Assembly: GCA_949358305.1 (NCBI GenBank)
Contig: OX442317.1
Coordinates: 11,474,186 to 11,538,185, forward strand
Direction of reading: 5' to 3'
DNA from: Strigamia acuminata
Taxonomy: Eukaryota > Arthropoda > Chilopoda > Geophilomorpha > Linotaeniidae
Length of the DNA stretch: 64,000 nt
Within the stretch, counting starts at the first letter, position 1. Each line of letters starts with the position of its first letter. Shown one piece after another: positions 21,201 to 60,971 of the stretch. The notes under the pieces are model-generated. The model did not search any database and had not been told where the DNA came from. It worked only from the letters and a program-made list of their open reading frames with translations. A program made the position numbers and the translations under genes.

Positions 21201-24085
21201 CTACGGTCGTTCCAAAATGACGGTATGAGTTGCAGAAACGGCTGGCATGCCTACGGTCGTTCCAAAATGACGGTATGAGTTGCAGAAACGGCTGGCATGC
21301 CTACGGTCGTTCCAAAATGACGGTATGAGTTGCAGAAACGGCTGGCATGTCTACGGTCGTTCCAAAATGACGGTATGAGTTGCAGAAACGGCTGGCATGC
21401 CTACGGTCGTTCCAAAATGACGGTATGAGTTGCAGAAACGGCTGGCATGCCTACGGTCGTTCCAAAATGCCATGTTGAGTTGCAGAAACGGCTGGCATGT
21501 CTACGGTCGTTCCAAAATGACGGTATGAGTTGCAGAAACGGCTGGCATGTCTACGGTCGTTCCAAAATGCCATGTTGAGTTGCAGAAACGGCTGGCATGT
21601 CTACGGTCGTTCCAAAATGCCATGTTGAGTTGCAGAAACGGCTGGCATGTCTACGGTCGTTCCAAAATGCCATGTTGAGTTGCAGAAACGGCTGGCATGT
21701 CTACGGTCGTTCCAAAATGACGGTATGAGTTGCAGAAACGGCTGGCATGTCTACGGTCGTTCCAAAATGACGGTATGAGTTGCAGAAACGACTGGCATGT
21801 CTACGGTCGTTCCAAAATGACGGTATGAGTTGCAGAAACGGCTGGCATGCCTACGGTCGTTCCAAAATGACGGTATGAGTTGCAGCAACGGCTGGCATGC
21901 CTACGGTCGTTCCAAAATGCCATGTTGAGTTGCAGCAACGGCTGGCATGTCTACGGTCGTTCCAAAATGACGGTATGAGTTGCAGGAACGGCTGGCATGC
22001 CTACGGTCGTTCCAAAATGCCGGTATGAGTTGCAGGAACGGCTGGCATGCCTACGGTCGTTCCAAAATGCCATGTTGAGTTGCAGAAACGGCTGGCATGC
22101 CTACGGTCGTTCCAAAATGACGGTATGAGTTGCAGATACGGCTGGCATGCCTACGGTCGTTCCAAAATGCCATGTTGAGTTGCAGAAACGGCTGGCATGT
22201 CTACGGTCGTTCCAAAATGACGGTATGAGTTGCAGAAACGGCTGGCATGCCTACGGTCGTTCCAAAATGACGGGTTGAGTTGCAGAAACGGCTGGCATGC
22301 CTACGGTCGTTCCAAAATGCCATGTTGAGTTGCAGAAACGGCTGGCATGCCTACGGTCGTTCCAAAATGACGGTATGAGTTGCAGATACGGCTGGCATGC
22401 CTACGGTCGTTCCAAAATGACGGTATGAGTTGCAGAAACGGCTGGCATGCCTACGGTCGTTCCAAAATGACGGTATGAGTTGCAGAAACGACTGGCATGT
22501 CTACGGTCGTTCCAAAATGACGGTATGAGTTGCAGAAACGGCTGGCATGCCTACGGTCGTTCCAAAATGACGGTATGAGTTGCAGCAACGGCTGGCATGC
22601 CTACGGTCGTTCCAAAATGCCATGTTGAGTTGCAGAAACGGCTGGCATGCCTACGGTCGTTCCAAAATGACGGTATGAGTTGCAGGAACGGCTGGCATGC
22701 CTACGGTCGTTCCAAAATGCCATGTTGAGTTGCAGAAACGGCTGGCATGCCTACGGTCGTTCCAAAATGCCATGTTGAGTTGCAGAAACGGCTGGCATGC
22801 CTACGGTCGTTCCAAAATGCCATGTTGAGTTGCAGAAACGGCTGGCATGCCTACGGTCGTTCCAAAATGACAGTATGAGTTGCAGGAACCGCTGGCATGC
22901 CTACGGTCGTTCCAAAATGACGGTATGAGTTGCAGATACGGCTGGCATGCCTACGGTCGTTCCAAAATGACGGTATGAGTTGCAGAAACGGCTGGCATGC
23001 CTACGGTCGTTCCAAAATGCCATGTTGAGTTGCAGAAACGGCTGGCATGCCTACGGTCGTTCCAAAATGACGGTATGAGTTGCAGATACGGCTGGCATGC
23101 CTACGGTCGTTCCAAAATGACGGTATGAGTTGCAGAAACGGCTGGCATGTCTACGGTCGTTCCAAAATGCCGTGTTGAGTTGCAGAAACGGCTGGCATGC
23201 CTACGGTCGTTCCAAAATGACGGTATGAGTTGCAGAAACGGCTGGCATGCCTACGGTCGTTCCAAAATGACGGTATGAGTTGCAGGAACGGCTGGCATGT
23301 TTACGATCAATCCAAAATGCCGTGTTAAGTTGCAGAAACGGCTGGCATGCCTACGGTCGTTCCAAAATGACGGTATGAGTTGCAGAAACGGCTGGCATGC
23401 CTACGGTCGTTCCAAAATGCCGTGTTGAGTTGCAGAAACGGCTGGCATGTCTACGGTCAATCCAAAATGCCGTGTTGAGTTGCAGAAACGGCTGGCATGT
23501 CTACGGTCAATCCAAAATGCCGTGTTAAGTTGCAGAAACGGCTGGCATGTTTACGATCAATCCAAAATGCCGTGTTAAGTTGCAGAAACGGCTGGCATGT
23601 TTACGATCAATCCAAAATGCCGTGTTAAGTTGCAGAAACGGCTGGCATGTTTACGGTCAATCCAAAATGCCGTGTTAAGTTGCAGAAACGGCTGGCATGT
23701 TTACGGTCAATCCAAAATGCCGTCCGTGTTAAGTTGCAGAAACGGCTGGCATGTCTACGGTCAATCCAAAATGCCATGTTGAGTTGCAGAAACGGCTGAC
23801 ATGTTTACGGTCGTTCCAAAATACCATGTTGAGTTGCAGATACGGCTGGCATGTCTACGGTCGTTCAAAAATGCCATGTTGAGTTGCAGATACGGCTGGC
23901 ATGTCTACGGTCGTTCCGAAATGCCATGTTGAGTTGCAGAAACGGCTGGCATGTCTACGGTTGTTTCAAGATGACGGGTTGAGTTGCAGAAACGGCTGAC
24001 ATGTCTACGGTTCTACTAACATGACGGGTTGGGTTGCAGAAACGGCTGGCATCTCTACGGTCGTTTCAAGATGACGGGTTGAGCT
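18286..24085 (+). repeat. 50-bp minisatellite, about 116 copies
   Basis: Head-to-tail array of a 50-bp unit. The core is GCTGGCATGTCTACGGTCGT followed by TCCAAAATG, a variable segment (CCATGTTGAG, ACGGTATGAG, CCGTGTTGGG and others) and TTGCAG plus A/G/C/T-AACG. Ends are diverged, as expected for array edges. A rare GACTGGCATG variant recurs at 20990, 21790 and 22490, showing block duplications of 16 and 14 units. Because 50 is not a multiple of three, long open frames appear in all three phases (for example 19430-19978); these are repeat artefacts. One unit near 23720 has a short insertion. Confidence 0.97.
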
Positions 24086-24289: not shown

Positions 24290-24775
24290 CAGGATGATGG
24301 GTGAAGCGGTTGTCACGTCTACGGTCATTCCAAGATCACGGCTTGAGGGGTGAAGCGGTTGTCACGTCTACGGTCATTCCAAGATCACGGCTTGAGGGGT
24401 GAAGCGGTTGTCACGTCTACGGTCATTCCAAGATCACGGCTTGAGGGGTGAAGCGGTTGTCACGTCTACGGTCATTCTAAGATCACGGCTTGAGGGGTGA
24501 AGCTGTTGTCAAGTCTACGGTCATTCTAAGATCACGGCTTGAGGGGTGAAGCGGTTGTCAAGTCTACGGTCATTCTAAGATCACGGCTTGAGGGGTTAAG
24601 CTGTTGTCAAGTCTATGGTCATTCTAAGATCACGGCTTGAGGGGTTAAGCTGTTGTCAAGTCTACGGTCATTCTAAGATCACGGCTTGAGGAGTTAAGCG
24701 GTTGTCAAGTCTACGGTCATTCTAAGATCACGGCTTGAGGAGGGGTTAAGCGGTTGTCAAGTCTACGGTCAATGA
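24290..24775 (+). repeat. 49-bp minisatellite, about 10 copies, related to the 50-bp array
   Basis: Unit GAAGCGGTTGTCACGTCTAC followed by GGTCATTCCAAGATCACGG and CTTGAGGGGT. It shares the GTCTACGGTC.TTCCAA core with the 50-bp array, so the two probably have a common origin. The arrays are separated by about 200 bp of AT-rich unique sequence (24090-24289). Confidence 0.93.
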
Positions 24776-27344: not shown

Positions 27345-27680
27345 TCCTGGAATTAAATGGCGCCGAGGCATGACTATTGGTTAATATAATCACACGTCTT
27401 TTTTTTTGCTGCATAGCCGTTGGTTAATTTATTTTATTTAATTCTAAATTCAAATATATTATTATTTGTTTCTTTTTTATTTTATTATTATTGTTTTTGT
27501 TTTTAAAAAGAGAAACCAATTTAGATTTATTCTAAGCTTAGAATAAATAAATACAAAGTCAAGAAATGTGTTGAGTTATTAAAAGAAATAAGACAAAATG
27601 AATATTTATCCACGAATTTTAAGTTGAACATGGGTTTGGATCAACTTTTGAGGAAATGCGGCGAATATAAAGATTGTAAT
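27345..27680 (+). pseudogene. Orphan family copy A, two broken fragments
   Basis: 27345-27385 matches the 3' end of orphan copy B (35868-35908), and 27530-27680 matches its 5' end (35140-35285). Between them lies the same AT-rich spacer found between copies B and C. The start codon position reads ATA, not ATG, and homology stops after about 40 codons, so this copy cannot make the full protein. It lies about 180 bp upstream of the Dicer-derived gene. Confidence 0.75.
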
Positions 27681-27861
27681 TTTACAATTCGATCATTTTA
27701 TTTTCATTTTTTGAATTCTAATTTCAATTATACTATCACTAAGCGGCCTGTAGCAATTAGCCAATAGGAGGAGTATCACATTTGAATTGATATAAATTTC
27801 AGCTACACTAATAAAATCAGCAGCCAAGAACACACATACAAGTAGTTTATTCACCGTTGAG

Positions 27862-30751
27862 ATGGACAAAGCAGCTCTAGGAAAAACACAACCATATATT
27901 TCAAAACGACGTCAATTATATAAAAAACTGGTACAGTATTTCGTTACTATAAAGATTTTATAGATTAACAGTTTTACAGTTTTTCTATCATAAGCTTAGA
28001 TGGTTATTTAAAATGTCAGAATTGATCAAATTAGACTAATGATTCCCGAAATATTTAAAATTTGTATGTTTTTTTAGGTTGCTCCACATTTACTAGACTG
28101 TCCATGCTCAAATACAAATTGCTCGATGTATCTAATTTGTGTAAAACCTTCGAAACAAACAAGAGAACGTATCGGAGGAACTATTCACGATACCGAAACG
28201 AGTTATCGACAATTTGCCATAATTACGTCAGACGAATTGCCAAAGGTATTACTAATACACTTGCACATATTTTTATTTTACATTTTAAACTTCTTATTAA
28301 AACTTTACATTAGATTTCACCTTTTCCAATATTCACAAAAAATGGAAAACATTGGGTTACATTAACCGAATTATTTGGAACGGTAGATAATGTAATGTTT
28401 GAAGAGAGAGATTTAAGCCGGATTGCAGAATTCCATAAACGTTTTTTTTTCGACTTTTTGCAAATAAATTCATATCCAATAGACTTTCAGCCTTTGGGTT
28501 CAAATATGGCACTTTTTGTCCTTCCCCTTATAAAGCTTATTGGTATGTGTAAAAAAATTTTCGCATTATTAAACTGTTTAACTGAAATGTGACTCTATCG
28601 GTTGACATTATGAAATTTATGAAACTTATAGATGGCACCGCGGATGAACCGCCTTTGTTTGATGTGGATTGGAAAACAATTAAAGATGTATGTGATTACG
28701 CGTTTGATGGTTTACCCTCAGCAGAAGAAAGAAAACAGTTTCAATGTGATGAAACAAAGTTTGTGAACAGAGTGGTAGTTCCACTGTATTTAATCGATAA
28801 AGTATTTTTCATCGTGGAACAAATTACGAAAACAATTTCTCCATCGCATCCATTTACAACCCAAGTGTATAAATCTTGCGGATTTAAATCATGCGCTGAT
28901 TATTTCCAAAAAAAGTACGGAGTGGCGATTCAAAACATGGATCAGCCATTACTATCAGCCAAAATGATCACCAACAATGAACTAAATATGATCTCGAACA
29001 AGGTCAACAGAAAGGACGAGAAAAAAAATATGGCTATTGATGGTGAAACCATGAACACACACATATTCCTGGTGCCTGAACTCTGCGGCGTTTTACCGAT
29101 TAGTGCATCTCACTTAAAACATGGAACGATGATACCCAGTATCATATACCGTTTGAACGACTTAATTTTAGCGACTGAATTTTCGGGGAAAATGGCAATG
29201 TATGTAATGTCGAGAGATCTATGTTCGAAAGATTTAACATACAAGAAATGGTCTATAACTGAAAAGAGATACCGTGAGTTATCGGTTATGAAGGAAAACA
29301 ACTGGGAATTCGATTATAAAATCGAACACGGTTCTATGTTCTCTAATTATGACAATCTTCCACAACCACACGTGATTTTGAATGCACTAACCACGTGCGC
29401 AGCAAATGATTGCTTCGATTTGGGACGGTTAAAATTCTTAGGGAGCGCTTATCTGAGGTTTGTGGTAACAGTACACCTCTTCAACAAGTTCCCAGCACTA
29501 GATGAGGGTAATTTGATCAGTAGAAGAGATGCATTGGTGTCGAGTTCACATCTCTATCAAATAGCTGAAAATAAAGGGTTAACTAATCTAGTAAAATGTG
29601 AGATATTTTCACCAGCTACTAACTGGCTACCACCGTGTTTCGTCATAAACATCAGCTCTGAGTTCAGGTTAATGCGTGCAGGACTGCCCTTCGACTCTTG
29701 GAAATATTTTATCGGTTATGATTTGAAGAAAGGAAGATGTGATAAGATACGCTCATTTGCGGCAAACAGTGGGAATGCAAAATATATCGGCCAATGTGGT
29801 GACAAAATCGGTCATTTGGAAACGGAAGGAATTGTTATGAATTCGACCGAGTATCAGCTGATCGCTGATAAACATGCTGCCGACTGTGTTGAGGCGATTG
29901 TGGGAGCATACTTGTTGTATGCTGGATCAGAAGCAGCTCAGTTTCTTCTCATTTTTCTCGGACTTGATATTCAGCCTGGCGAGACAAACACGAATGTGAT
30001 AAAGGTTGCTTTAACCAACCCAGAAAAATGTATACCTGATGAACTATTAATGGGATTGTCTAATTTTGAAAATGAAATTTGCTACGTGTTTCGAGATAAA
30101 TCCTTTCTCATTCAAGCAATAACTTATCCTTCACACTACAGTAATAAATTAGAAGTTGGTTGTTATAACAGACTCAAATTTCTCGGAGATGCAATTTTAG
30201 GTAAGTGGAAAGTAAAATTTGAAGCTATTTTTTTTTAAATCTATAGATTGAACAACTATTTTTTTTGAAAGATTATTTGATTACCTGGCATCTGTTTGCT
30301 GATACGAAGACATTTCCACCCCGGGAGCTAGCTGATATTAGATCAGGTTTAGTTAACAATACCACTTTTGCAAAATTAGCTGTGACAAATACTGCGTTTA
30401 CAAAATTGGGAAAATTGGCCGCGGATGTGCACAATTATCATTCGAATACAGGAAATCCCATTTTGGTTAATATCAGAAGTAAATTTCTTGCATTAGCAGA
30501 TGGAGATAATGTATGTAGTGGGGTGTGTTTTTAAACTTAGATTACGTTATCTGAATTCTGTTTATTTTATTTTTTTCTAGTTTTTAATCGAGAAAGAAGG
30601 TTGTTTCGATGTGGAGGAAGCTGAAATATTCAAAGTTTTGGGCAATATATTTGTATCTATAGCTGCGGCTATTTATTTGGACAGTGAGTCCAACTTAGAT
30701 TCTGTGTGGAAAGTCTATTTTAAAATTGTGAAACCAATTATTAGTTTGTAA
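27862..30751 (+). CDS. Helicase-less, catalytically altered Dicer homologue
   Basis: Six exons join in frame: 27862-27930, 28078-28245, 28314-28542, 28632-30200, 30272-30510 and 30581-30751, giving about 814 aa. They encode a Dicer platform-like region (residues about 25-190) and a PAZ domain (about 195-330, with [15 protein letters not shown] and PSIIYRLN). RNase IIIa (about 400-600) has [10 protein letters not shown], where the family has RLExLGDxxL; the acids at 423 and 427 are Lys and Ser, while the later ADCVE acids at 573 and 576 remain. RNase IIIb (about 640-800) has [10 protein letters not shown] (Lys 671, Asp 675) and LGNIFVSI, so the last acidic pair is Asn 780 and Val 783. No helicase or DUF283 precedes it and no dsRBD follows. 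Normal Dicers are about twice as long. RNA binding without cleavage is inferred. All splice sites are GT-AG and all frames open, arguing against a decayed pseudogene. A TATA-like GATATAAAT lies about 70 bp upstream. Confidence 0.85.
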
Positions 30752-31630
30752 TTATTCATTACCTGACCACTGCAAGAAAAAGTAGATTTTATTGGATTAA
30801 ATGTATTGTGTAAATTAATTGTAAATTTAATATTTACAAGTTGTAAATTAAATTTACAAATTTTGTTAAAGATGAAATTTATCTTTAAATTTAATTTTGT
30901 AAAAGACACTTTACAAAGTGTTATGAACATAAACTTTACAAAATTATTTTTTTTTTAAATTAACCATTTAAATGCTTGTGAAATTAATTGTAAAATAGAG
31001 AGTTTGTAGGATGCATTTTTCCCTTATTTTGCCCCACGACACATTATTTTAGTACCATATGGTTAAGCAAAAGACCTTTAGTGTATCGTTTTTAACACTA
31101 AAATAAAATATAGGGCAGCCAATTCGGTATTTTTCCAATATTTACGTCACGGCCTTATAATTTAGATTAGCAGCGAACTCATTCCTGACATTTTAATTTC
31201 ATTGCTTCGATGTCATTGTTTTCTCTATCATTTGGTTTAAATTTGCAATAATAAAGGTGCTTCATTGTTTTAAACCAGTAAATTACAAGAATTGTCTCTA
31301 ATGTTTAACGTAAGGATAATTTTAAAACATAAAAAATAAATTCACCCGGAATTTTTTAACTGCCGCAAACTCTCTATTGATTATAAAAATCAACTTTTCA
31401 TAAATAGATTTATTTTTTATCATTTACAAAACATCACGTTTGTAAATATTGAAATAAAGTTAAGATAAACCACACATTTCTTAAAAAATGAAACCAATTT
31501 ACCTCATATTAAATAAAATACATAAATAATTAAATTAATGTAGAACACAAATTAGATCAGTCAGTTGCACGTGTCAACTGTTGAGAACTATCTGAAAGTT
31601 AGCCCTGGAAATTAAAAAGTAGATGTTTTT
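30752..31630. other. AT-rich intergenic, nothing recognised
   Basis: Long A/T runs with several palindromic TTTACAA-type words near 30830-30950. No coding or RNA gene is evident. Confidence 0.5.
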
Positions 31631-34357: not shown

Positions 34358-34980
34358 GTCTTATGTTGATGATAATTTCTTGACCCGGTCCATCACCACT
34401 GGCTATGACCCCCCTCCCCGCCCAAACTGAGTTCACCCCGGACCTAGCATCACTCGCTGATTGGTATGCGGCCCATGACATGTCTCTCAACCAAGACAAG
34501 ACTAAGACTATTATTTTTAGGCGACCCTCAAGAGCAGTGACCCCATACCCAAGCGAAATGATCACTTACATAAAAATGAAGATTCACCCTACTGTCACCT
34601 ACGCCTCCCAATATTGGAATTCCACTGCTCGCAGATTCAAGGTCCCGCTTGAAACTGCGTATAATGCCGTTATTCAACCATCCCGGCCATAATCACATTA
34701 CTCCAGTATGTAATGAATTCGGCCTCCTGAGTTTGGATAACCTTCTCCGCCTTCACGGCATCACGGCAATCGCTGATGCTGTCCGTAACGTGGACCATCC
34801 AACCCACAATATCGCCACACATTACCAGTCAGATGTCGATGCCCACCTGCCTTGCCGCCATCGTTTTGAAGTTACCACCCGGCAGTCCACTTACACGCGT
34901 AACACGTTCCCTTATCGATGTACTCCCCTCCCCCATCTGGAACGACCTTCCAAACAATTTGAGATCATCAATGTTAATTA
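34358..34980 (+). mobile_element. LINE-like reverse transcriptase 3' fragment
   Basis: The segment LADWYAAHDMSLNQDKTKTI followed by FRRPSR matches the post-catalytic part of non-LTR (Jockey-type) reverse transcriptases. The frame then shifts into a C-terminal region with FGLLSLDNLLRLHGI. Only the 3' portion is present; there is no endonuclease or YADD region. At 34980 it abuts the 3' part of the orphan-family spacer and appears to have truncated the preceding copy. Confidence 0.7.
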
Positions 34981-35150: not shown

Positions 35151-35910
35151 ATGAATAGAGATAAAGTCAAGAAATGCGTTGAGTTTTTAAAAGAAAAAAG
35201 ACAAAATAAAGATTTATCTACGGATTTCAAGTTGAACGTGGGTTTGGATCAACTTTTGAGGAAATGCCGTGAATATAAAGATTTTGACAAGATTATCCCT
35301 GTTCCGTATTATCTTCATAAAAGTGCCTTTGATGGTCAATGTCGCGAGTACATTGTAAATTTCGACGAAAGGATTTGTGAAATAGAAGACGTGATGAAAG
35401 ATGTTGCTCCAAAAATCCGAGCATTGGCAGCGGAAGTTATAGCCGACACGAATGCGTGCAAAGTAAGCATTATGATGCAATTGAAATATCGACATTCCAA
35501 AAAGTTGTCGCATGCAAATTTTTGGTACCGGGCTGGGCCGTACGTAATGTTTACAGATGATGTTGACCACATTCTGGATTCGGCTGCGAGAGAACTGGTA
35601 ATACAAAATGCCGAATATGAAGAAACTCACGACTACTTTTATTTCGTATGTGTACAGACACTTAAAATTGATTTCGCTTTTTTTAAACCAAAAGGTGGAT
35701 GGGGCAAAAATGTCATCTCGCGTCGGCGATCGCGTGGAAAGATACGCGATCATACACAGAAACAGGAAACATCACGTTGATTTATTCCTGTACGGGAACA
35801 ATTGCTACAGCCAGATAAGAAATATTAAACGTAACAACCAATTCAAGAGCATTGTTGGTAGAGAATTCCTGGAATTTAATGGCCCGAGGCACGACTATTG
35901 GTTAATTTAA
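35151..35910 (+). pseudogene. Orphan family copy B, frameshifted
   Basis: Not recognised. The first frame (35151-35780) encodes about 209 aa, starting MNRDKVKKCVEFLKEKRQN: a charged helical N-terminus, then a mixed domain with DEICEIED-like acidic and aromatic segments. Around 35695-35710 the coding signal passes to another frame, which stays open to 35910 and ends with sequence that is also found at the 3' end of copy A. A single-base indel therefore probably broke the original gene of about 250 codons. The upstream and downstream spacers are almost identical, showing tandem duplication. It could still be expressed as the shorter product. Confidence 0.55.
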
Positions 35911-42403: not shown

Positions 42404-44476
42404 ATGGCACACGACTCGCATTTGGAGCAAAACCAAACAATGGACATCCTGAAACAACAAGTTTACTTAGCGGCACGTGATGGAATACCCGCAACTTTAT
42501 TCCACCTCCTGATAGGTAAACCCGATGACGAAATCACTCTTGTTCTGGACCACATGACCGAGGAAGACGGACATATATTCTCACCACTTGCCGTTGCCGC
42601 TAATAATGGCCACTTAGAAGTCGTAGAATGTTTATTAACGTGCTTTAAACCATCTGTCGATCAGGAATGCACGTTTACACGGACTCGAAGTCTTATTATC
42701 GAATGTGCCACTCCTTTGTGGTGTGCTGCAAATGCCGGACATTTGCAGGTTTTGAGATGTCTTGTTGCTAATGGCGCCGACATCGACCACCCAATCCAAA
42801 CTGGAACAACGCCATTACTTGCTGCTTGTTCCAATAACATGTTGGACATTGTGCGATATCTGGTCGAATGTGGCGCGGACATCAACAAGGGCAACCGTTA
42901 TAAAACTACTTGCTTGATAAAAGCCACCTACTACAACTATACGCAGATCGTTCACTACCTGTTGGAAAACGGGGCAAATCCAAACATTGTAGCGGTTAAC
43001 GGTATGACAGCTCTGCATTATGCAGCGAAGCTGAACGACGTGAAAATTATGCAACACATGTTGATAAAAGGAGCAGAAATGCAGAATACTCGGTATGTGT
43101 TGTCGCCGTTATTGCTGGCTGCCCAAAGAGATCGAATGGATGTGTTGAAATTTCTTCTATCGCGGGAAAATGTATCGCAAGCTGAGAAAATCGACGCATT
43201 GGAGCTACTAGGCATTTCTTTCGCCGAAGACCAAGAACATGACTTGGACGATAGGTGCTTCTATTCGCATTTTTTTTGGGAGTTCTGGTCTTGCCATCAA
43301 AATCTAAATCAGGGGATATCGTTCAAACGTGTATATCTTAAGGTTGAAGCGCATGAGAACCCTCATGATAGATGCATGGAACACCACATGCTGGAAGGAC
43401 TGGAATCGATAAAAACGAGCGACAACAGTCCATACTGGGAATATCAGGTGATCAAGAAGATGATCCCCGTTCCTCACAATCCCGACGTGCATTCTTCAGT
43501 GATTTTTCGCGAAGCGGCTTTTGTTAATGGCGGAGATTATGACCGCTGTATAGCGCTATGGATGCATGCTTTGAGATTGAGGCAGCAGACCGATCGATCT
43601 GCCACCATGAACTTGCGGCGACTTGTGCGGGTGTTTTGTCATGCGATACCTAAAGGCGTCGTTATCTCATTCGAGGTCTTGAGTGAGGTACTTAGAAGAT
43701 GCATTTTAGAGCTACAGTACAACCAGGTGAAGCTCTTGACTGTTAAAAACAGAAAAAAGGAGATGCTTGAATATGAAACCGACCTAGACATTTTGACGAC
43801 TATATATTTACTTATCTTAGTAACAAAATTAATGACAAATATGTCAAAGCAAGAAAAGATGTGTATTCATAGCTTGACATCCAATTTGAATTCTTTGGGT
43901 TTGTCAACTCACAAGCACAAGCGTTCATTGTTACATTTAGTCGTGCACGCGGATACTATCGTGGACGAGTTTCACATAAGTGACGTTTGTCAGGTCCCCT
44001 GCGCTGCCACTGCTAACCTATTAATCAAATGTGGAGCCAATGTAAACGCTATCGACACATCCAGAAATACTCCCCTACATTATATTGCTGCTTTTCGGAA
44101 ATTCAAAAAAATCGAGATCATAAGAAATTTTACATCAACTGAGCTGTTGTTAAAAGGTTTGATAGCCCCACCATATGAAACTATTCGTGACATCAAAATT
44201 GAAATAAAAGCTTTATTAATGGAGTTGATACGAAATGGGGCACACACTGACGCTGTTAACAACTGTGGGCTGACGCCATTCGAAGTTGCAACTGATTGTG
44301 ACATCAAGATTTTATTAAATGCTACTTCTAATTTATGTCTAAAATGTATTACAGCCAAAACAATAAATACGTTTAAAGTTCCTTATGATAATTTACCGCA
44401 AATGCTAAAAAGTTTCATTGAAATCCATAAGTTTCCAAATTGTAGCTTTGAAAGTAGACGTGTATTACATGAATAA
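42404..44476 (+). CDS. Intronless FEM-1-like ankyrin-repeat protein
   Basis: One uninterrupted 690-codon frame from ATG 42404. FEM-1 proteins are substrate receptors of CUL2-RING ubiquitin ligases that read C-terminal degrons, and they take part in sex determination in nematodes. Residues about 15-255 hold about seven ankyrin repeats (FSPLAVAANNGHLEVVECLL, TPLWCAANAGHLQVLRCLV, NRYKTTCLIKATYYNYTQIV, GMTALHYAA). The middle has the FEM-1-typical KIDALELLGISFAED and GGDYDRCIALWMHALRLRQQ segments. C-terminal ankyrin repeats follow (CGANVNAIDTSRNTPLHYIA). The length is near that of animal FEM-1B/C, so it is complete. The lack of introns suggests a retrocopy or carriage by a virus or element; whether it has a promoter is not clear. 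Divergence in the centre is large. Confidence 0.85.
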   Translation: MAHDSHLEQNQTMDILKQQVYLAARDGIPATLFHLLIGKPDDEITLVLDHMTEEDGHIFSPLAVAANNGHLEVVECLLTCFKPSVDQECTFTRTRSLIIECATPLWCAANAGHLQVLRCLVANGADIDHPIQTGTTPLLAACSNNMLDIVRYLVECGADINKGNRYKTTCLIKATYYNYTQIVHYLLENGANPNIVAVNGMTALHYAAKLNDVKIMQHMLIKGAEMQNTRYVLSPLLLAAQRDRMDVLKFLLSRENVSQAEKIDALELLGISFAEDQEHDLDDRCFYSHFFWEFWSCHQNLNQGISFKRVYLKVEAHENPHDRCMEHHMLEGLESIKTSDNSPYWEYQVIKKMIPVPHNPDVHSSVIFREAAFVNGGDYDRCIALWMHALRLRQQTDRSATMNLRRLVRVFCHAIPKGVVISFEVLSEVLRRCILELQYNQVKLLTVKNRKKEMLEYETDLDILTTIYLLILVTKLMTNMSKQEKMCIHSLTSNLNSLGLSTHKHKRSLLHLVVHADTIVDEFHISDVCQVPCAATANLLIKCGANVNAIDTSRNTPLHYIAAFRKFKKIEIIRNFTSTELLLKGLIAPPYETIRDIKIEIKALLMELIRNGAHTDAVNNCGLTPFEVATDCDIKILLNATSNLCLKCITAKTINTFKVPYDNLPQMLKSFIEIHKFPNCSFESRRVLHE

Positions 44477-49432: not shown

Positions 49433-50362
49433 GTTATTGTTATTGTTATTTTTTACACTTACGGTCTTTTTTTCCTATTCTTTTGCGCTTTCAGTGCCTG
49501 AAACGCCTCTACTGTCATCAAGTTGATTTTCCGGCTGGCTGGTTTCCAATATTCCGGGACTAAAAAAAATTGTAAATTACTATTCAAATTTATTATTATT
49601 ATTACTGTTATTCTTACTTCTGGTTGCTGGCCCATCCATTATTTCTTGGCCCCTTGAATCTACCAAAACCATTTCGTCTTGTTCACTGAGATAGAATTGC
49701 ATCTTCTCCAAAACTGTGTCAACGGTGGTGTCATCTTCATTGAGACGAATGTGGTACGTTTGCACCTCACTTAATTCGCCATCATCTGCTGTGCAGAGCG
49801 TAACAACCCTAAATTTTTTATTTGCAGTTAGAATATGAATTGCATATATTTAAAGATTTAAATTTAACCTGGTGAAGGCTGTATTCGGTCTACTCCAGAC
49901 ATTTTGGCCAGAAGTTGATGCCAACGGTGAAGGCAATGATGATGGAAACGTCAACCTTAGGCTGGGCAGTGGTTGTGGTGCAGAAAATTTTGGAGTAAAT
50001 GCACCTGGTAGTGATGGCACACTTAACACCGGTCGTGATGGCATAGTCATAATCGCCGATGCGGGTTGTGTCGAATTGCCGTGTACACTGTACGTGTCTC
50101 TTGGCAAAAGCTCATCAACGTCGAACTTACCATCAGTATCGTTCGGAAAAAACTGACATCCAACTCTGTCTGTTAAAAACAGCGAGTTTTCAATTATCTG
50201 TGATTGAAAAAGATTTTAAATAAATTATTTGAACAACAAAACAAAAGAAATACCTTTATTTGCGATACTTACAGAAAACATCTTGCTTATACGGCTTGCA
50301 GTCATGTTATACACAGCCACATTAAAGGTTACTTCGTTACGTGTGAGAATGAATGAATCCAT
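48906..50362 (-). CDS. Six-exon RING-finger protein
   Basis: Exons 50362-50273, 50197-49869, 49808-49618, 49559-49463, 49381-49164 and 49111-48906 join in frame at good GT-AG sites, giving about 376 aa. An N-terminal domain (about 1-70) contains GCQFFPNDTDGKF. A Ser/Pro/Thr-rich linker is followed by a beta-grasp-like segment (TYHIRLNEDDTTVDTVLEKM, then VLVDSRGQE) and a short coiled coil (about 280-310). A C-terminal RING-type finger follows: FRCLICLGKM, TCCSSLVACEECLNIW and FQCPKC. RING proteins usually act as ubiquitin E3 ligases. The order resembles a class of invertebrate and fish RING proteins often found near mobile elements, a resemblance given from memory only. The start lies about 130 bp from the oppositely oriented 995-aa gene. 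Confidence 0.75.
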
Positions 50363-50492
50363 TGTTGAAACTGACAAAATTGAATGTTATAAACAGGTTG
50401 ATGAAGACGCAATTTTCCCACCTAATAAACCACTTATTTTCTTTTTTCATAAAAAAATAACTCTTATTTTCTTTAAGAAAACATTTATAAAT
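50363..50492. promoter_or_regulatory. Shared divergent promoter region
   Basis: The 130 bp between the RING start (minus) and the likely start of the 995-aa gene (plus) must hold both promoters. A TTTATAAATATGG stretch lies at the very end, too close to the plus-strand ATG to be an ordinary TATA box. Within it the plus frame is open but has a different composition. Confidence 0.4.
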
Positions 50493-53480
50493 ATGGAAAA
50501 TATAAGTTACAAACATATTCACCCTGTTTATTTACTTTTCGTAATGATATTAATCACGGCTCTTATTACCTTTATTATTTGGATTAGAAACCAAAACATT
50601 TATGTTGAAAATTTAAATTCTTTAATATTTGTTGACAAAAAAGTAAAAATATTCGATAAATGTCGATCAACATATGGCGACAACTTGGAGATAGACATAG
50701 ACGCAAGTAATGTTTTACGGTTACTGAAAATAGACATGATGAGTTCAAAATTGATACTTGACGAATATTGTGTAAAAAATGCAACTAGGTCTGCTTTAGC
50801 AACAGTGAATGATGATGGAAAATCCCTATTCTTTGACCATAAAACCATAGTATCAGGTAATACAATAAAAAATAATGTTTTAATATCTTGGGATTTGAAT
50901 GTGACATCAATAAAAAAAGCTATTCTTGGTGAAACATCAAAATATTCACAATTATTAATTACAGATATAACTGATGGGTATCAAACAAAATATGTTCCGT
51001 TAAAATACGAAAACACGGCTGCTAAAACATTGGAATTAACTAATAAATCAGGTGAATTGGAATTCACAAATCCGTCCAGTAATGTATTTATTGCTCATTC
51101 ATTAATAGATAATGCATTAAAAATAGCTCAATTTAATAACAAGACAATGAGAGATTTAACATTAATTAAACCAAATTTAAAACACATTGCACGTCAGAAT
51201 GTGAACATTGGATTTGAAGAAACAATTAAAAATTTTGTTCTATTTGATTACAATAAGCTATTTGCTTCTGTCGAACAAAATATGTTGATTTATAGTCAAA
51301 ATGGTTCTTTTCATGAAATGGAGAGAAGTGAGTTGTCTTCTAGTTTATGCAAACCTTTTTCAGTTTTAAATAAATGTTCCCATTCTTCTAAGGAATTATT
51401 ACTACATAAAGGCAAGCAATTAAGTTTGTTTTTGACTAACGCGTCAGATGAGGACACTCAACTTTATTTATCACAAACTACAGACACTCCACTTTATTTA
51501 TCACAAACTACAAACGCATTTGTATTCCGAGATCCATCTTTGTATGATTTGCAAACTACGTTTGAAGATAAACGATCAGGCTCTATTGTATTACTTGATA
51601 ATTCCAAACAATACATTAAAGAGTCTAGTTTGACCGTAGACCTCACTCATGGTGCCGAAGGAGACTTGCTAACATTAGATTCAGACAACAAGTTGATCTT
51701 ACAACCGACCACTCCAAACTTTGCAAACAAGAAACAGGCTGATAAAATAAATATAATTTGTATCAATATAAATACAAAAAATCTTCAAGAAATGGTCATA
51801 GGAGGTGGTAGCGACGTAAATATCATCTATGTGTTGGGAGTTAGTTTGAATGGGGTGATAACAGAGTTAATAAAGCTAAACTCAGTATTTTTTGCCTTAA
51901 ACGGAAATAAGATTGCATACAACAATGACATATGTTTGTTGTTTTGGAATAAATCAGTAAACAAGATGTCTCAATTTGAATTATCTATACCAAATACTAT
52001 TAGCAAAGGCATTTTACATATTGGAAGTCAGAATGAAATCAAAACATCAGAGATTAAAGGAATATTTAAAGATTTTACAGTTCATGACTTCACTGGTGAT
52101 ACCAATACGAAATTTTCCGTTCTACTTTGTAATGAAATTAATAAAACATTCATTGTAAATCTAAAAATTGAACTGCCGACACAGATTAATACAGCTTTAT
52201 CATATGTGCTTTGCCTGGAACAATCACGGTTGAATGTATTTCCTACTAGTAACTTCTCAAACGTTTACAAGATTAATCAATCATCTCTAAGCGCTTTGGC
52301 GTGTATATCAAATAATAAAAAAAAATTATCAAAATTATTAACAGGGCCACTTTCACCGGAAAGCCTTGGTAAAGGTTGTACATTGTTTTGTTATAATAAA
52401 ACAGGGGGTCAACATACTTGTACTTTTGTCAAAATAAACAGACGAAAAGATCTAAAAGTATTTAATGTAGTCACCTTATCTGAAGACAACAAAATTTTTA
52501 TTAAAACTGTTGAGAGTGTTTTTACGGAACAAATGATATTGCATGTTGCTTCATTAAACAACATGTTTTCGAATTGCTTTAATCAAAATTCGAATGATGT
52601 TTTGCTTTTTTTTGATTACAGTACAAAGACGATATTGGATGTTGCACCAACTCAAAACGATGTTAGCATTTCATTGTTAACATATAAGAAGGGTAATAAA
52701 TTACAGTCAGTCCCATGTATTTCAGGCGATGTAACTTCATTCTTAGGATTCAATACAACTGAAAAAAATTTTTCTTATGAAAATAATCAAATAATGTTGC
52801 TACAGAATATGGTACAATTACAACAAGATAAGAATTTTCGCTCATCAATGGTTTTACATGATACATCAATAAACAATTTATCTGCAGATAAGATATTACA
52901 ATTTCCAATAGAAAAACCGCGTGTTTCTTCAATGTTAGGTTATGACCTCTTATCAAGTAGTTTATCTTGGATTGTTATATCTTCATATCTGGATAATACA
53001 GGTGGAAATAAGCTGTTGGTTTTAAGGAGACACAACAGGTACATATACCTACCTTTAGGAGTAGAAAGTAAATATTATAATGATACGCCTAACATAACGT
53101 TAAAAACTTATAAAGATACTATACTTTTTTTACCTCAAGCTACAATTTATACTTCAAAAATGTCTGTACTGTTAGTCAATATTTATATCACAATAGACAT
53201 AGATCGGAGAGGCTTAAACAAGCATAATAACATGTACATTAAACTTGTGTGTAAATGTATACATGAGCTTAGTGAGCAAGAACAGTCTGTAATCATGCTC
53301 ATGAAGGAAGAAACCACATACACACAAAATATTTTTTTATTTAAGAAATTGGGATATGGTACAACTGTGTGTGATATTTCTATCAAAAGATGTTTTAATC
53401 CATATGATTTACCACCAGATAATTATCAGGAGAGAGAAATATTAGCACACGAAATACGATATTTTATTACCAGATTTTAG
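50493..53480 (+). CDS. Large type II membrane protein with repeated beta-motifs, 995 aa
   Basis: The frame is open from 50229, but the first ATG followed by an obvious signal anchor is 50493. Residues about 10-33 (PVYLLFVMILITALITFIIW) form one membrane span after a short cytosolic N-terminus, leaving about 960 residues outside or in the lumen. The ectodomain repeats a motif of three hydrophobic residues, aromatic or Leu, Asp/Asn and a polar turn (examples: FVLFDYN, SIVLLDNS, DLLTLDSDNK, VLLFFDYS, SMVLHDTS, SMLGYDLLSSSLSW). There are many Asn sites for glycosylation. The 1025-aa gene at 57894-60971 shares topology and motif, so the two look like paralogues. No introns. Length and topology suit a virion surface protein of a large arthropod DNA virus; I cannot name the orthologue. 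Confidence 0.65.
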   Translation: MENISYKHIHPVYLLFVMILITALITFIIWIRNQNIYVENLNSLIFVDKKVKIFDKCRSTYGDNLEIDIDASNVLRLLKIDMMSSKLILDEYCVKNATRSALATVNDDGKSLFFDHKTIVSGNTIKNNVLISWDLNVTSIKKAILGETSKYSQLLITDITDGYQTKYVPLKYENTAAKTLELTNKSGELEFTNPSSNVFIAHSLIDNALKIAQFNNKTMRDLTLIKPNLKHIARQNVNIGFEETIKNFVLFDYNKLFASVEQNMLIYSQNGSFHEMERSELSSSLCKPFSVLNKCSHSSKELLLHKGKQLSLFLTNASDEDTQLYLSQTTDTPLYLSQTTNAFVFRDPSLYDLQTTFEDKRSGSIVLLDNSKQYIKESSLTVDLTHGAEGDLLTLDSDNKLILQPTTPNFANKKQADKINIICININTKNLQEMVIGGGSDVNIIYVLGVSLNGVITELIKLNSVFFALNGNKIAYNNDICLLFWNKSVNKMSQFELSIPNTISKGILHIGSQNEIKTSEIKGIFKDFTVHDFTGDTNTKFSVLLCNEINKTFIVNLKIELPTQINTALSYVLCLEQSRLNVFPTSNFSNVYKINQSSLSALACISNNKKKLSKLLTGPLSPESLGKGCTLFCYNKTGGQHTCTFVKINRRKDLKVFNVVTLSEDNKIFIKTVESVFTEQMILHVASLNNMFSNCFNQNSNDVLLFFDYSTKTILDVAPTQNDVSISLLTYKKGNKLQSVPCISGDVTSFLGFNTTEKNFSYENNQIMLLQNMVQLQQDKNFRSSMVLHDTSINNLSADKILQFPIEKPRVSSMLGYDLLSSSLSWIVISSYLDNTGGNKLLVLRRHNRYIYLPLGVESKYYNDTPNITLKTYKDTILFLPQATIYTSKMSVLLVNIYITIDIDRRGLNKHNNMYIKLVCKCIHELSEQEQSVIMLMKEETTYTQNIFLFKKLGYGTTVCDISIKRCFNPYDLPPDNYQEREILAHEIRYFITRF

Positions 53481-55446: not shown

Positions 55447-57129
55447 ATGTTAAAATTACTTTTGTTCGTACTAACTATTGTTCTGATCATCTACTTGTTA
55501 ATAAATTTGCTTTTTAAACACCAGTTGTTGAATTGTGACGATTCGTTGTTAAGACAAAAAGATAATCAATTACCAATTCCATATAATTTAAAATACGTAT
55601 TTAATGAAGAAAATGGTTTTGAATGTTCAAATTTAACAAAATGCGATTTGAGGGATCCTAAATCATGTTTTTATTGCAACGGGACTGGGTTTAGATGTAA
55701 ACACTTTTCAAGTCCTGAGATCATGGAAGATTCCAGCATCAAATCTAGACGGTACACTATTCCGAAAAACAAACTGAAAACTGAAGGCTACTGTATAAAA
55801 CATCGCAGATGCAATCCACACACAGGCGATCGAATTTTGGTCAAACTGCCTGATGGATCGGTTGATTATATGTGTAAATGCAAACACCCCAAATTGGTAG
55901 ACAAAGCTAATCTGTTTGGAGATTGTAATTTGATAAAGGCTTGCGGAGTTAAAGGTATTCTAATAAATAAAAACAGTGGAAACCCGATCAAGTTGGGAAA
56001 TGAAGTAGACTTTGACCCTTACACAGAAGGTTCCTGCAAATGCCCAGACGGGTTGAAAAATCAGTTTACTGGAAACATTGGACCTGAATGTACACCGATA
56101 CACGTCAAAGAGTTAGCTGCTTGTCATAATAATACTTACATCGATAAAAAAATGCTATGTAATTGTCCGAAAGGCTATGTTTCGAGCAATCATTTTTCAG
56201 AACTAAAAAAAGTAGGTTATGTTCAAGATGTAGCTAATATTTTTACTAAACCCCAATGCATTCGCAAACCATGTCAATGGGATATCGTAATACCAAAAAA
56301 ATACAGTTTTGATAATTCCTTTGTCGAATCTATTGGGTGCGTGTGTGACTATAAAAAAGGCTGGGTTGGTGTTAGAATAGAAGAGCATTCAAAAAACTTC
56401 GATATCCTTAGCTGGGTGGATACGACCCATTATAATGCGTGTGTACATATAGCAACAACAGATGCTGGTCGTCCTCACGAATCACTTACATTTTTTTATT
56501 GGAAGCAAGGAATTTTCACCAAACATAAATACAACGAAGAGGATCTAAATGACTGGGTTTTTGATATCATCGTTAATAATCACCCCAATAAATCATCGCG
56601 AGATGAAGAGAGACATAGGCGCCGAGAGACGTACGGCAAATTTGCTGATAAGTTTGAACATGAAAGTATATGGATTCTCGAGCAACTATACAATGATGGT
56701 GTGACTCCATATTCCCCCGAATGCTATTACATGAAAGCCATAAATAAATACCACACAAAAGGAGATAAGATTAAACTCACAACTTATCGCAATGAGACCG
56801 GGTTTAATGTGAGTTTATTTGCAGACTGGACTAATTCCAGCAACACAGTTTTAAATATAGGAAAATGTGAGAACAAGCACCCAATGCAAGTTTTATGTTT
56901 CACTGGTAACCGATATATACATATGTTTGTATTAAATCCAAACGCAGTGAGAAAACATGTCAAAAGCGGTGATCCACCCAATTACGGATCTATTAAAATA
57001 ATCGAATTCGATGATAGGATTGAAATCCAAAACACCTATAAAATTCTTCCCTTCAAAGCTGAGATGGCGCTTCAAATGGTTGACGTTCCTTCTAAAGGAA
57101 CATGGGGTTTCTGGAGTGAAAATCCGTAA
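55447..57129 (+). CDS. PIF-1-like Cys-rich membrane protein (viral entry factor type)
   Basis: The frame is open from 55360 but ATG 55447 starts a clean signal anchor, MLKLLLFVLTIVLIIYLL, giving 560 aa. After it come Cys clusters: CDLRDPKSCFYC near residues 53-64, then paired C-x-C turns (CKCKHP, CKCPDG, CNCPKG) and CQWD, spread over about residues 45-295. The remaining half is a mixed domain with no span. N-anchor plus C-x-C-P-x-G repeats and this size fit PIF-1, the per os infectivity factor used by baculoviruses, nudiviruses and related arthropod DNA viruses in gut entry. PIF-2 has related features, so the exact member is open. No introns. The frame is uninterrupted, so the gene is either recent or under selection. 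An EGF-like host protein is the main alternative. Confidence 0.6.
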   Translation: MLKLLLFVLTIVLIIYLLINLLFKHQLLNCDDSLLRQKDNQLPIPYNLKYVFNEENGFECSNLTKCDLRDPKSCFYCNGTGFRCKHFSSPEIMEDSSIKSRRYTIPKNKLKTEGYCIKHRRCNPHTGDRILVKLPDGSVDYMCKCKHPKLVDKANLFGDCNLIKACGVKGILINKNSGNPIKLGNEVDFDPYTEGSCKCPDGLKNQFTGNIGPECTPIHVKELAACHNNTYIDKKMLCNCPKGYVSSNHFSELKKVGYVQDVANIFTKPQCIRKPCQWDIVIPKKYSFDNSFVESIGCVCDYKKGWVGVRIEEHSKNFDILSWVDTTHYNACVHIATTDAGRPHESLTFFYWKQGIFTKHKYNEEDLNDWVFDIIVNNHPNKSSRDEERHRRRETYGKFADKFEHESIWILEQLYNDGVTPYSPECYYMKAINKYHTKGDKIKLTTYRNETGFNVSLFADWTNSSNTVLNIGKCENKHPMQVLCFTGNRYIHMFVLNPNAVRKHVKSGDPPNYGSIKIIEFDDRIEIQNTYKILPFKAEMALQMVDVPSKGTWGFWSENP

Positions 57130-57893: not shown

Positions 57894-60800
57894 TCAAAAA
57901 AATAATATTGACAATCTCAATTTAGCACTAGCAAAGTCTATCTTAGTAACCCTTTTATATGCGTTCAACGTAAACATCGGTACAATAGAACGGTTTGTAG
58001 ATGTTATTGATACGTCTGCTTCAAATTTTATTTCAACAACTATTTTTTCTGACGGTTCTATTATAAATTGTTGGACTTCAGATAAATATTGTAGTATTGG
58101 CACAAACCGTATTGTTTTATTAAACGTTTTAGTTCCAACACTATAAATAATCTTTAAATTACAAGAACCTATAGTTATCTGGCAGTAACAGTTAAATGTA
58201 ATCATGACATTTGTTTTATTATTACTATCAAGCTCTTTTTGAAGTAATGTTTGACGTCTATTTTGACCCATAACAAAAGTATAAACTGTGTCGTATATCT
58301 CTTGAATCAGTACCGGAGCTTTTATGATTTTGTCTGCGTTTATCCATTCGGGTTTGCGTTTGTTTTCCGAATACACTAATACTAACTCATCATCCTTATT
58401 TAGAGGAGGCACAGCATTGTTAACAAAAGTATCGTATATTGATTTCCACTTCAGCGATGTATCATAGACTAGAACAGATGATTCACTAGGTCTAGTAGGG
58501 AATTCATACGTGCTATCAGATTGTAACTGTCTCGTGCTGTGATTAAATGTGACAAGTGCTCTTGTAGCTCGACTGTTAGTTGATGTCAAACCTGATAAAA
58601 TTGCAATACTTTCGATAGTGCTTTTGTCTAGCAGACACAATTCTTTCTGATCGTTAAATCCTAGGATATGCGTAATGTGTTTATTTGAAGGAGGTTGAAT
58701 TTGAAAAAAGTTTAGAGACTTTTCTTTCCATCCAATTAATCCCATACTTTCTGTGCTTGGGATTTCTACTCCTTTCACTTTATTATCTGCATGAGTTATT
58801 ATTAGAATACTTTTTTTGTCGATAGGTTTTGCCGTAAAAGTTTTTAAAAACTCTGTATAAGGTGTAAAATACTGCACAAATGAGGATACGAAAAGTTCAT
58901 TTAAACTTATGAAGGTTATTTTCATCTGATGATCTAGAGTCAAAACAGACTCTTTTTTTGGAGAATGTAGTTCATTTAATTCTAACATATTAGTAGCTCT
59001 ATTATAAATAATAATAGACGAATCGCTTGAAATTTTGTCTGATGTTGCGACAGGGATCTTAGACAATTTATCACTTTCAACAGAAAGTAAAAACGCTGGC
59101 AAAGCTGTGGAAATGCTAGCAGGAGAATCTGCTTGAATGTCGTCTGATGTGATCCAACTCAGTAAGTTTTGTTTCAAACCTAAAAAATATTGTTTCTCAA
59201 TGGTCGGGATTGGAGGAATTTTGTACATCGCATGCTTTATAAAGATTTTCTTTTTTTCATCGTACAACACGATTGGTAAAGCTGTATCCGCCACGGTGAT
59301 CAACTTGAACCTTGAAGAAACGTTCTTTTCAATTTCAGTTTCCACATTTATCCAGCTAAGTTCGTTATTAGAATTGACACTTATACAATCATTTTTTTGA
59401 CGTTGCGAAAAAAAATCGTTAGCTAAGTTCCAACCAGCTTCTATATTTTTGGTTTTTGTGTTATAAAATATCAGCACATTGTTTTGTGGTAAATTTCCCA
59501 AAAATTTTGTCCACAAGTTTTCCTCATACTTCACAAGATTTAATTGGTTTGTATCGGTAATACCTATCAACGATTTTGTTGTCGTAGCTTCCTTTGCAAT
59601 AATAGGCACAATTTTTTCATTTTTAATCATAGCGAAAATTATATCAGTCTGTTTAGTATCGTCTGGAAGTTTTATTATAAGCTCAGATATGGTCTTAGAC
59701 AAAACTGGCGACCGTAACCCTAAAGACCCGTCCGTCAATACGGTCAACACGTCTCCTGGCTTACCATCGGATAGGGATATTTGCATCGATGCTTTCATTA
59801 GATTTTTAGAACTTTTATCCATCAATGCGAAATATCCAGAATTGTATTCGGCATCTTTATTATATTGACTGACTGTTTGCCAGTTGAAATCATCTTTGAG
59901 TTTACATAAATATTGAGATGTGTCCTTATCAACAGGGTTTTTTATCAATTCAAATTTCTTATCCTGACAGTTGTATAATACTAGTTTACTTTCTCCGGAG
60001 GCATCTGATCTCAAATTTTCAAGTAAGAAATCTACCGCTTTATTGACTTCAGAAAGTGGATACCAACTAAGTTGTTTATTTTCGTCATAACTCAAGAAAT
60101 TTCTATCAATTATATCTGGGATATCAGGTAAAAAACTGTGCAGTGTTTCATCATCTACCGATTTGTAAAGAACTATTTCATCTTCATCGGTCGCACCAAG
60201 TGTGTAACTCGGGATAGTGTCAATTTTCTTTAAGTATTCTATTTTCAACTTATTTAGCGTAATATCAAACTGTACCAAATGAGGAATGGGTTTAACAACT
60301 TCGTCGGGGTCTGCTACTGATACATTACCAATCGGCGGAAGTAAGTATAAATCATTATTGTGTAAGGTAATTACATTACCTTCATTGTTGTTAGTATTTT
60401 TGTTTAATTTAATAGACGACACTATCCCGTTATTTAAATCGAGAGTTAGAAACGCAGCATCGGACAAATTTAAGTTCACTAAAGGATTAATATTTAAGAG
60501 TCTCAAATTATTGGCTATCATCGTATCGCAAGACATTGTACCATCTCTACATGTAACCGATTCACTAAACGTCAGATTTTTACCGTTGTCACCTAAGATA
60601 CATACAGAATTAGGAATTAACGTTTCAGGAAAACGTGTTGCGTCTATAATAAACTTATCATCAGCAAAAGTAATTCGTTTTACATCTAACGTGTCACCAC
60701 CAATGATTTTGACTTCCTTCGAGGAAGTTAGTTTCGAATTTACAAAAAAAGCCACTTCATTATGACGCTTTTTCTTGGAAACAATCTCGTGCCAATAATA

Positions 60801-60971
60801 TTGTCGTCTGCTTTCCCAAAACCCGTATAATGCTAAAGAGATTAAGATCAACAAAACCGGGAATACATGTGATGAGTTGGGAGTTTTAATGGATGCTAAT
60901 TGTGGTACAATCCTAGACTTAGGTTGTGATTTAACAACTTTAGTCTTTGGTGTTATTATTCGTCTATTCAT
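57894..60971 (-). CDS. Large type II membrane protein with tail-fibre-like repeats, 1025 aa
   Basis: ATG 60971. A basic 34-residue cytosolic N-terminus is followed by a span at about 36-51 (VFPVLLILISLALYG) and a 970-residue ectodomain. The ectodomain has at least eight copies of a hydrophobic-Tyr/Phe-Asp/Asn beta motif, at about 266, 329, 499, 566, 652, 805, 832 and 863. It also has five x-W endings (LSW 301, LSW 538, LSW 604, LKW 840, PEW 874) and a GKPGDVLTVLTDGSL unit near 404. This G-x-x-GDVLT-x-x-DG pattern recalls phage and virus fibre shafts. The C-terminal 120 residues look like a separate beta domain. No introns. It is paralogous in plan to the 995-aa gene. A virion or adhesin role is inferred. 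Confidence 0.65.
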   Translation of the reverse strand: MNRRIITPKTKVVKSQPKSRIVPQLASIKTPNSSHVFPVLLILISLALYGFWESRRQYYWHEIVSKKKRHNEVAFFVNSKLTSSKEVKIIGGDTLDVKRITFADDKFIIDATRFPETLIPNSVCILGDNGKNLTFSESVTCRDGTMSCDTMIANNLRLLNINPLVNLNLSDAAFLTLDLNNGIVSSIKLNKNTNNNEGNVITLHNNDLYLLPPIGNVSVADPDEVVKPIPHLVQFDITLNKLKIEYLKKIDTIPSYTLGATDEDEIVLYKSVDDETLHSFLPDIPDIIDRNFLSYDENKQLSWYPLSEVNKAVDFLLENLRSDASGESKLVLYNCQDKKFELIKNPVDKDTSQYLCKLKDDFNWQTVSQYNKDAEYNSGYFALMDKSSKNLMKASMQISLSDGKPGDVLTVLTDGSLGLRSPVLSKTISELIIKLPDDTKQTDIIFAMIKNEKIVPIIAKEATTTKSLIGITDTNQLNLVKYEENLWTKFLGNLPQNNVLIFYNTKTKNIEAGWNLANDFFSQRQKNDCISVNSNNELSWINVETEIEKNVSSRFKLITVADTALPIVLYDEKKKIFIKHAMYKIPPIPTIEKQYFLGLKQNLLSWITSDDIQADSPASISTALPAFLLSVESDKLSKIPVATSDKISSDSSIIIYNRATNMLELNELHSPKKESVLTLDHQMKITFISLNELFVSSFVQYFTPYTEFLKTFTAKPIDKKSILIITHADNKVKGVEIPSTESMGLIGWKEKSLNFFQIQPPSNKHITHILGFNDQKELCLLDKSTIESIAILSGLTSTNSRATRALVTFNHSTRQLQSDSTYEFPTRPSESSVLVYDTSLKWKSIYDTFVNNAVPPLNKDDELVLVYSENKRKPEWINADKIIKAPVLIQEIYDTVYTFVMGQNRRQTLLQKELDSNNKTNVMITFNCYCQITIGSCNLKIIYSVGTKTFNKTIRFVPILQYLSEVQQFIIEPSEKIVVEIKFEADVSITSTNRSIVPMFTLNAYKRVTKIDFASAKLRLSILFF

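Follow-up and report, generated by a model that had tools for sequence, protein, structure and literature searches.

A Dicer-like gene with replaced catalytic acids in an endogenous giant DNA virus of the centipede Strigamia acuminata: a candidate decoy in RNA interference

Why should a centipede genome carry a Dicer-like gene that has no helicase and has lost most of its catalytic acids? The question is raised by a locus within 64,000 nucleotides of Strigamia acuminata (GenBank assembly GCA_949358305.1, contig OX442317.1, positions 11,474,186 to 11,538,185 of the forward strand; hereafter the window, whose first letter is position 1). The original prediction for this locus, made from the letters alone, was a Dicer pseudoenzyme that could tune or suppress RNA interference (RNAi), with a decayed paralogue as the alternative. 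Through comparison with further copies in the assembly, with the host's own Dicers and with known viral systems, we arrive at a reading to which, in all of its parts together, we give an even chance: a nuclear giant virus made a decoy for dsRNA or siRNA ends out of a host Dicer, killed both of its nuclease sites and carries it alongside FEM1-like ubiquitin-ligase adaptors, in a host that keeps three tandem Dicers and a Dicer-1.

Gene structure and catalytic residues

The Dicer-like gene lies at 27862..30751 on the forward strand, and its six exons yield 2445 nt in a single frame that encodes 814 amino acids and stops at 30751. The clean splicing that had been predicted holds at every join, all borders being GT-AG, and the same six exons and borders are open in five other copies. 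The exons and the neighboring sequence motifs are as follows.

27791..27796, +, TATAAA, 71 nt upstream of the Dicer-like ATG (consensus only)
27862-27930, +, exon 1
28078-28245, +, exon 2
28314-28542, +, exon 3
28632-30200, +, exon 4, encoding K423, S427, D573, E576, K671 and D675
28634..30199, +, open stretch of 522 codons in exon 4 (PAZ, linker, RNase IIIa and the start of RNase IIIb)
30272-30510, +, exon 5
30581-30751, +, exon 6
30796..30801, +, ATTAAA, possible polyadenylation signal (consensus only)

The product matches the Pfam families Dicer_platform (PF20931, 5e-13), PAZ (PF02170, 3e-12) and, in two stretches, RNase III (PF00636, 2e-28), with no Pfam match to a helicase or dsRBD within its 814 residues; the predicted order of platform, PAZ, RNase IIIa and RNase IIIb is thus borne out. 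Arthropod Dicers, including the four of this host (a tandem trio and Dicer-1), share that order, but they differ from the Dicer-like product in that the latter lacks the helicase, has no dsRBD match, has five of eight acids replaced and is located in a virus. Among solved structures, fly Dcr-1 is the closest in sequence (PDB, E 3e-96), and Giardia Dicer (2ffl) is a weak match (E 0.002); for exon 4, a model predicted without an alignment had a pLDDT of 33 and is not used here. Giardia Dicer is an active cellular enzyme that likewise consists of platform, PAZ, RNase IIIa and RNase IIIb without helicase or dsRBD. Relative to this similarly built enzyme, the Dicer-like product has lost active-site acids and represents a separate derivation from an animal-type Dicer.

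The positions of the catalytic acids were judged against fly Dcr-1, human Dicer and the four host Dicers. In the window copy, five of the eight are replaced (K423, S427, K671, N780 and V783) and three are kept (D573, E576 and D675), so that every residue named in the original prediction is found in the translation. K423, D573 and E576 occur in all nine copies of the gene, and K671, N780 and V783 in all eight that reach that far; residue 427 is Ser in eight copies and Gly in one (C13), and residue 675 is Asp in six of eight and Asn in two (C9 and C37). The tandem trio on contig C1 and Dicer-1 on C8 retain all eight acids in each gene, an apparent S780 in one host Dicer having been rejected as an alignment artefact. 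The designation as a pseudoenzyme therefore appears sound, for positions 423, 427, 671, 780 and 783 hold no acid in any covering copy and the host Dicers keep all eight. The earlier concern that orthologues with intact acids might expose assembly errors does not apply, as the altered residues are seen again in copies elsewhere in the assembly.

The loss of acids is, on this comparative evidence, well supported. RNase III enzymes need their active-site acids for Mg2+, and the cutting activity of the product has presumably been lost as well. Glu is changed to Lys at the same position of RNase IIIa and RNase IIIb, and the acid changes are common to diverged copies; Lys in place of the first Glu of both domains could substitute for the charge of the metal and preserve the fold. 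The residues aligned with human Y936, F960, Y971, Y976 and E1036 (numbering by hand), which we take to form the siRNA 3'-end pocket, are kept in all nine copies.

Copies of the gene and the surrounding viral element

Copies were sought with PAZ and RNase III profiles in the assembly from which the window comes (237.5 Mb, 157 contigs), which returned 19 PAZ and 17 RNase III matches. Close Dicer-like copies occur at nine places: the window itself (C5:11.50 Mb), C5:11.05, C3:2.10, C13:1.77, C9:10.49, C37, C145, C1:60.28 and C12:9.39. Six are fully open (window, C145, C1, C9, C37 and C3), with all borders, 814 codons and no indel, and three are broken: in the C13 copy 31 nt are deleted and 2.25 kb inserted, that at C5:11.05 is without its 5' part, and that on C12 ends at about residue 660. 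With nine copies, six of them open, a lone pseudogene is rejected.

The nine copies comprise four large elements and five shorter pieces. Those on C9 and C37 are identical in coding sequence and may represent one locus; C37 and C145 are short contigs, which may cut an element off. The C9 and C145 copies match the window only to ~36.1-36.2 kb and then adjoin a satellite of ~1.02-kb units, presumably the host's, and the C12 copy also borders a satellite (related, with a slightly longer unit). Because these three copies adjoin satellite, some of the spread may not have been viral; five of the nine copies lie at places without other core-gene matches.

Judged by its gene neighbors, the Dicer-like gene belongs to a dispersed endogenous giant DNA virus that is naldavirus-like and ~285 kb or more in length. 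Homologues of p74 (pif-0) and pif-2 and an open DNA polymerase B frame of 1082 aa are all located in the same four places (C5:11.05 Mb, C5:11.50 Mb, C3 and C13), as are the best four of 60 tyrosine-recombinase matches; other polymerase matches in the assembly are short pieces elsewhere. VLF-1 of baculo- and nudiviruses is also a member of the tyrosine recombinase family. A pif-1 homologue is present in three of the four large elements (C5:11529650, in the window; C5:11073833; and C3:2053597, where it is split), with no match on C13.

The arrangement of these genes is shared. A Dicer-like copy stands at one end of all four large elements, in constant order and relative strand (one is without its 5' part and one is decayed), and is followed outward by pif-1, pif-2, polymerase, recombinase and p74 in both C5 elements, on C3 and, without a pif-1 match, on C13. 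In the window element, these genes lie ~28, ~121, ~123, ~199 and ~217 kb, respectively, from the start of the Dicer-like gene, and the last FEM1-like gene among the matches listed lies ~283 kb from it. Between ~24.3 and ~55.8 kb, the window and the C3 copy are colinear, mostly at 95-99.6% identity, except that ~1.7 kb near 47-48.7 kb is absent from C3, which in turn contains two additional stretches of 2.0-2.4 kb. Since the gene keeps its place relative to pif-1, pif-2, the polymerase, the recombinase and p74 in four separate elements, a host paralogue at a single locus is rejected. Nor is the gene a decayed paralogue standing alone; it is one of nine copies, seated in an endogenous giant virus. 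Further features of the window are listed below.

12300-15481, long frames, retrotransposon gag-pol-like (named by the look of the sequence)
18275-24083, 50-bp tandem array of 116 copies, left side of the element
24295-24771, 49-bp tandem array of 10 copies, left side of the element
27345..27675, +, degenerate 5' part of a neighboring element gene family (cf. 34978-35283), in the 5' flank of the Dicer-like gene
35151..35780, +, 209-aa member of an element gene family with several copies and no assigned function; its 5' part is found again ahead of the Dicer-like gene
42404..44476, +, FEM1B-like gene, one open frame of 690 aa (E 2e-103)
50304..53480, +, 1058-aa open frame of the element, no family match in Pfam
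55447..57129, +, pif-1 homologue, a naldavirus core gene (Pfam PF05092, E 1e-14)
57894..60971, -, 1025-aa open frame adjoining pif-1, no family match in Pfam
61842-62615, Copia-like fragment within the viral part (named by look; no significant Pfam match)

Features of Naldaviricetes in the element are thus pif-0/p74, pif-1 and pif-2, together with a DNA polymerase B in each of the four copies. Models of lef-8 and lef-9, and likewise of pif-5, had no match in the assembly and matched no control genome either. According to passages in PMC10271883, pif genes mark Naldaviricetes and lef genes Lefavirales, and for this reason a nimavirus-like placement appears the likelier one. IMG/VR was scanned with three queries (pif-1, the Dicer exon, the FEM1-like protein) and no relative emerged; pif-1 had no PDB match at E up to 1. 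A search of a large protein database left no hit below E 0.001 among 4345 candidates, but animal Dicers seem to be scarce or absent in that database, so that the result has no bearing on novelty.

Endogenous nimaviruses are described in passages of PMC10871703 and PMC7016691 as giant transposable elements with host-like genes, some of them intron-bearing. As portrayed there, Majanivirus, Pemonivirus and Clopovirus resemble the present element: they are giant endogenous naldaviruses of hundreds of kb, several have a tyrosine recombinase, and their host-derived genes carry introns. The host genes named in those passages include IAP/BIR, HSP70, innexin, CHH and Bax inhibitor, and the word "dicer" has no occurrence in the main text of either article. 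One such virus of shrimp, MjeNMV, is characterized in a passage of PMC10871703 as barely transcribed.

Host origin and constraint

The host's tandem trio of Dicers (C1, 13.997-14.036 Mb) encodes a helicase with the motif DECH, a platform, PAZ and both RNase III domains, and its members are 93-97% identical to each other over exon 4, the PAZ-RNase exon. The window copy is 57% identical to the trio over that exon, compared with 30% and 33% in two matched stretches of Dicer-1 on C8. An origin from Dicer-1, suggested by fly Dcr-1 as best PDB match, is therefore rejected: the trio is far closer within the genome, and it is the C8 gene that corresponds to Dcr-1. Downstream of one trio member examined, an open stretch on the same strand gives a weak dsRBD match (PF20932, E 2e-4, below the cut-off) and is presumably spliced to the rest of the gene.

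Three tandem Dicers are thus found in this host besides Dicer-1. Their helicase best matches an ancestral Dicer and human Dicer, with fly Dicer-2 and Dcr-1 less similar; their PAZ-RNase exon is better matched by fly Dcr-1 and human Dicer than by fly Dicer-2. The C8 gene has Dcr-1 as its best match and is without DECH. The trio is probably of Dicer-2 type by exclusion, being so called only because it is the host's other Dicer and keeps a DECH helicase.

Intron positions connect the Dicer-like gene with the trio. In the two trio members examined, all five introns have the same phase as in the Dicer-like gene. The splice acceptors are identical in position for introns 1-4, with an offset of no more than a codon at intron 5; the donors are identical in position for introns 1, 2 and 4, but are shifted by ~9 codons at intron 3 and ~5 codons at intron 5. 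Since the introns match, the piece was acquired as genomic DNA, and a host origin from a Dicer of the trio kind is, by these alignments, well supported. The viral gene stops just past what is likely the donor site with which the host's RNase IIIb exon ends, and a captured piece that ended in the following intron would probably explain the missing dsRBD. In a tree, eight element copies form one group (100/100) on a long stem; with one distant outgroup, a long-branch warning and the C37 copy left out, this tree settles only the unity of those eight.

Several observations point to selection on the captured gene. Between the window copy and four open copies (C145, C1, C9 and C3), there are no indels in 2445 exon nt and three to five such events in the 440-445 nt of intron. 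A random change would produce a stop in about 4.3% of cases, and the six open copies have none. Pairwise maximum likelihood omega ranges from 0.43 to 0.60 in six pairs, three of which use the decayed C13 copy; five of the six have p < 0.02, the exception being C145 versus C9 (p 0.13). A counting method gives mostly 0.35-0.57 for diverged pairs, and 0.11-1.35 for nearly identical pairs with few changes. By domain, each in two pairs, omega is 0.35 (p 0.0095) and 0.50 (p 0.069) for platform plus PAZ, 0.26 (p 0.002) and 0.35 (p 0.004) for RNase IIIa, and 0.97 and 0.66, neither significant, for RNase IIIb. Variable residues among six copies amount to 8% in the platform, 8% in PAZ, 9% in IIIa, 15% in IIIb and 32% in the linker (331-395).

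The inference of selection from open frames is accordingly strengthened by six open copies, exons free of indels and omega below 1; the dN/dS comparison between copies supports it for the whole gene and not for RNase IIIb. These estimates combine time in the virus with time in the chromosome and suggest moderate, not strong, constraint; part of it may predate endogenisation or be blurred by recombination between copies.

Among the alternatives, the one that survives best is a captured host gene without present function that is carried along passively by an endogenous virus, itself dead or dying, and lost its acids by decay. Three of nine copies are broken, RNase IIIb is near neutral, and further changes are present in some copies, namely D675N (C9 and C37) and S427G (C13). 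Nevertheless, we consider this alternative unlikely: decay sits poorly with indel-free exons beside introns that have several, with omega below 1, with a linker more variable than the folded domains, with 814 codons open in six copies, and with acid changes common to diverged copies, including the same Glu-to-Lys change in both domains. As a general account, the decayed paralogue named as the alternative in the original prediction is disfavored on these grounds, even though three copies are broken and constraint on RNase IIIb is not significant.

A putative decoy and its alternatives

The best reading, which we hold to be reasonably probable, is that of a virus-encoded Dicer decoy made from a captured host piece and acting as an RNAi suppressor. 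On this reading, the virus captured the platform-PAZ-RNase IIIa-RNase IIIb part of a trio-type host Dicer with its introns; the helicase was excluded at the 5' side, and the dsRBD probably because the piece ended in the intron that follows RNase IIIb. Within the viral lineage, metal-binding acids of both nuclease sites were replaced, with Glu turned to Lys at the same position in both, and the platform, PAZ and pocket residues were retained. The product, if expressed, may cap the ends of dsRNA, siRNA or pre-miRNA, or occupy Dicer partners, without cutting, and the outcome would be fewer viral siRNAs made or loaded. We infer this role of decoy or dominant-negative Dicer from the combination of a presumed RNA-end-holding non-cutter, its derivation from a host Dicer and its carriage by a virus. 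Tuning or suppression of RNAi, as first proposed, remains the best idea, and the likely beneficiary is the virus rather than the host.

Alternatively, the product may bind RNA on behalf of the virus without acting on antiviral RNAi: it might, for instance, bind host or viral pre-miRNAs, steer virus gene expression or pack RNA. The retained platform, PAZ and pocket residues would allow binding of many short RNAs, the similarity of the trio PAZ-RNase exon to Dcr-1 and human Dicer over fly Dicer-2 makes a role on the miRNA side possible, and the virus holds other captured regulators in its FEM1-like genes. The host, however, has a separate Dcr-1, which leaves the trio, with its DEAD-type helicase, as Dicer-2-type by exclusion, and Dicer-2 serves antiviral siRNA in flies; we regard such a role as quite unlikely. 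Domestication by the host, in which the copies would regulate its own RNAi or shield it against the element or its relatives, could draw on intact copies on C1, C9, C145 and C37, at which the searches for p74, pif-2 and viral polymerase had no match, but it is very improbable given that the gene travels with the element in all four large copies, that other virus genes are open too, and that the partial C9 and C145 copies border satellite arrays with nothing to single out the Dicer-like gene.

Viruses block RNAi with dsRNA-binding proteins or with short active RNase III enzymes. Examples of the latter are the silencing suppressors of ascovirus and sweet potato chlorotic stunt virus, each a short and active enzyme with a single RNase III domain. 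They are likewise viral genes of RNase III kind thought to affect RNAi; the Dicer-like product differs from them as a PAZ-bearing, double-RNase III pseudoenzyme that derives from Dicer. A virus-borne Dicer or Dicer-pseudoenzyme suppressor was not found in our limited search of the literature, and a virus-encoded Dicer pseudoenzyme, if the decoy reading is true, would constitute a class of RNAi suppressor absent from the literature searched. A captured and inactivated Dicer would be molecular mimicry of the RNAi sensor itself, would naturally separate Dicer end binding from cutting, and would bear on why nuclear DNA viruses must counter RNAi. The locus suggests that captured RNAi genes are worth seeking in giant endogenous viruses of arthropods, and it cautions that genes listed as "Dicer paralogues" in animals can be of viral origin.

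Finally, the element carries other genes and repeats of interest. Among the matches listed, each large element copy has at least three to five FEM1-like genes, plus some weaker ankyrin matches, and those other than the 42404-44476 gene are 40-59% identical to it; together they are perhaps a battery of CUL2 ubiquitin-ligase adaptors in the virus. The degenerate gene-family part upstream of the Dicer-like gene has lost the family ATG in eight of nine copies, keeping it in C13, and may have supplied the Dicer-like promoter. Parts of the 49- and 50-bp arrays recur in several element copies and possibly represent viral repeat regions or a satellite of the insertion site; telomere-type units (TTAGG, GGTTA, CCTAA) in runs of two or more are absent from the window. 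The frames at 50304-53480 and 57894-60971 flank pif-1, each with a hydrophobic stretch near its N-terminus. A further cluster of FEM1-like genes at C13:7.60-7.71 Mb is without a Dicer-like match and is probably another element remnant.
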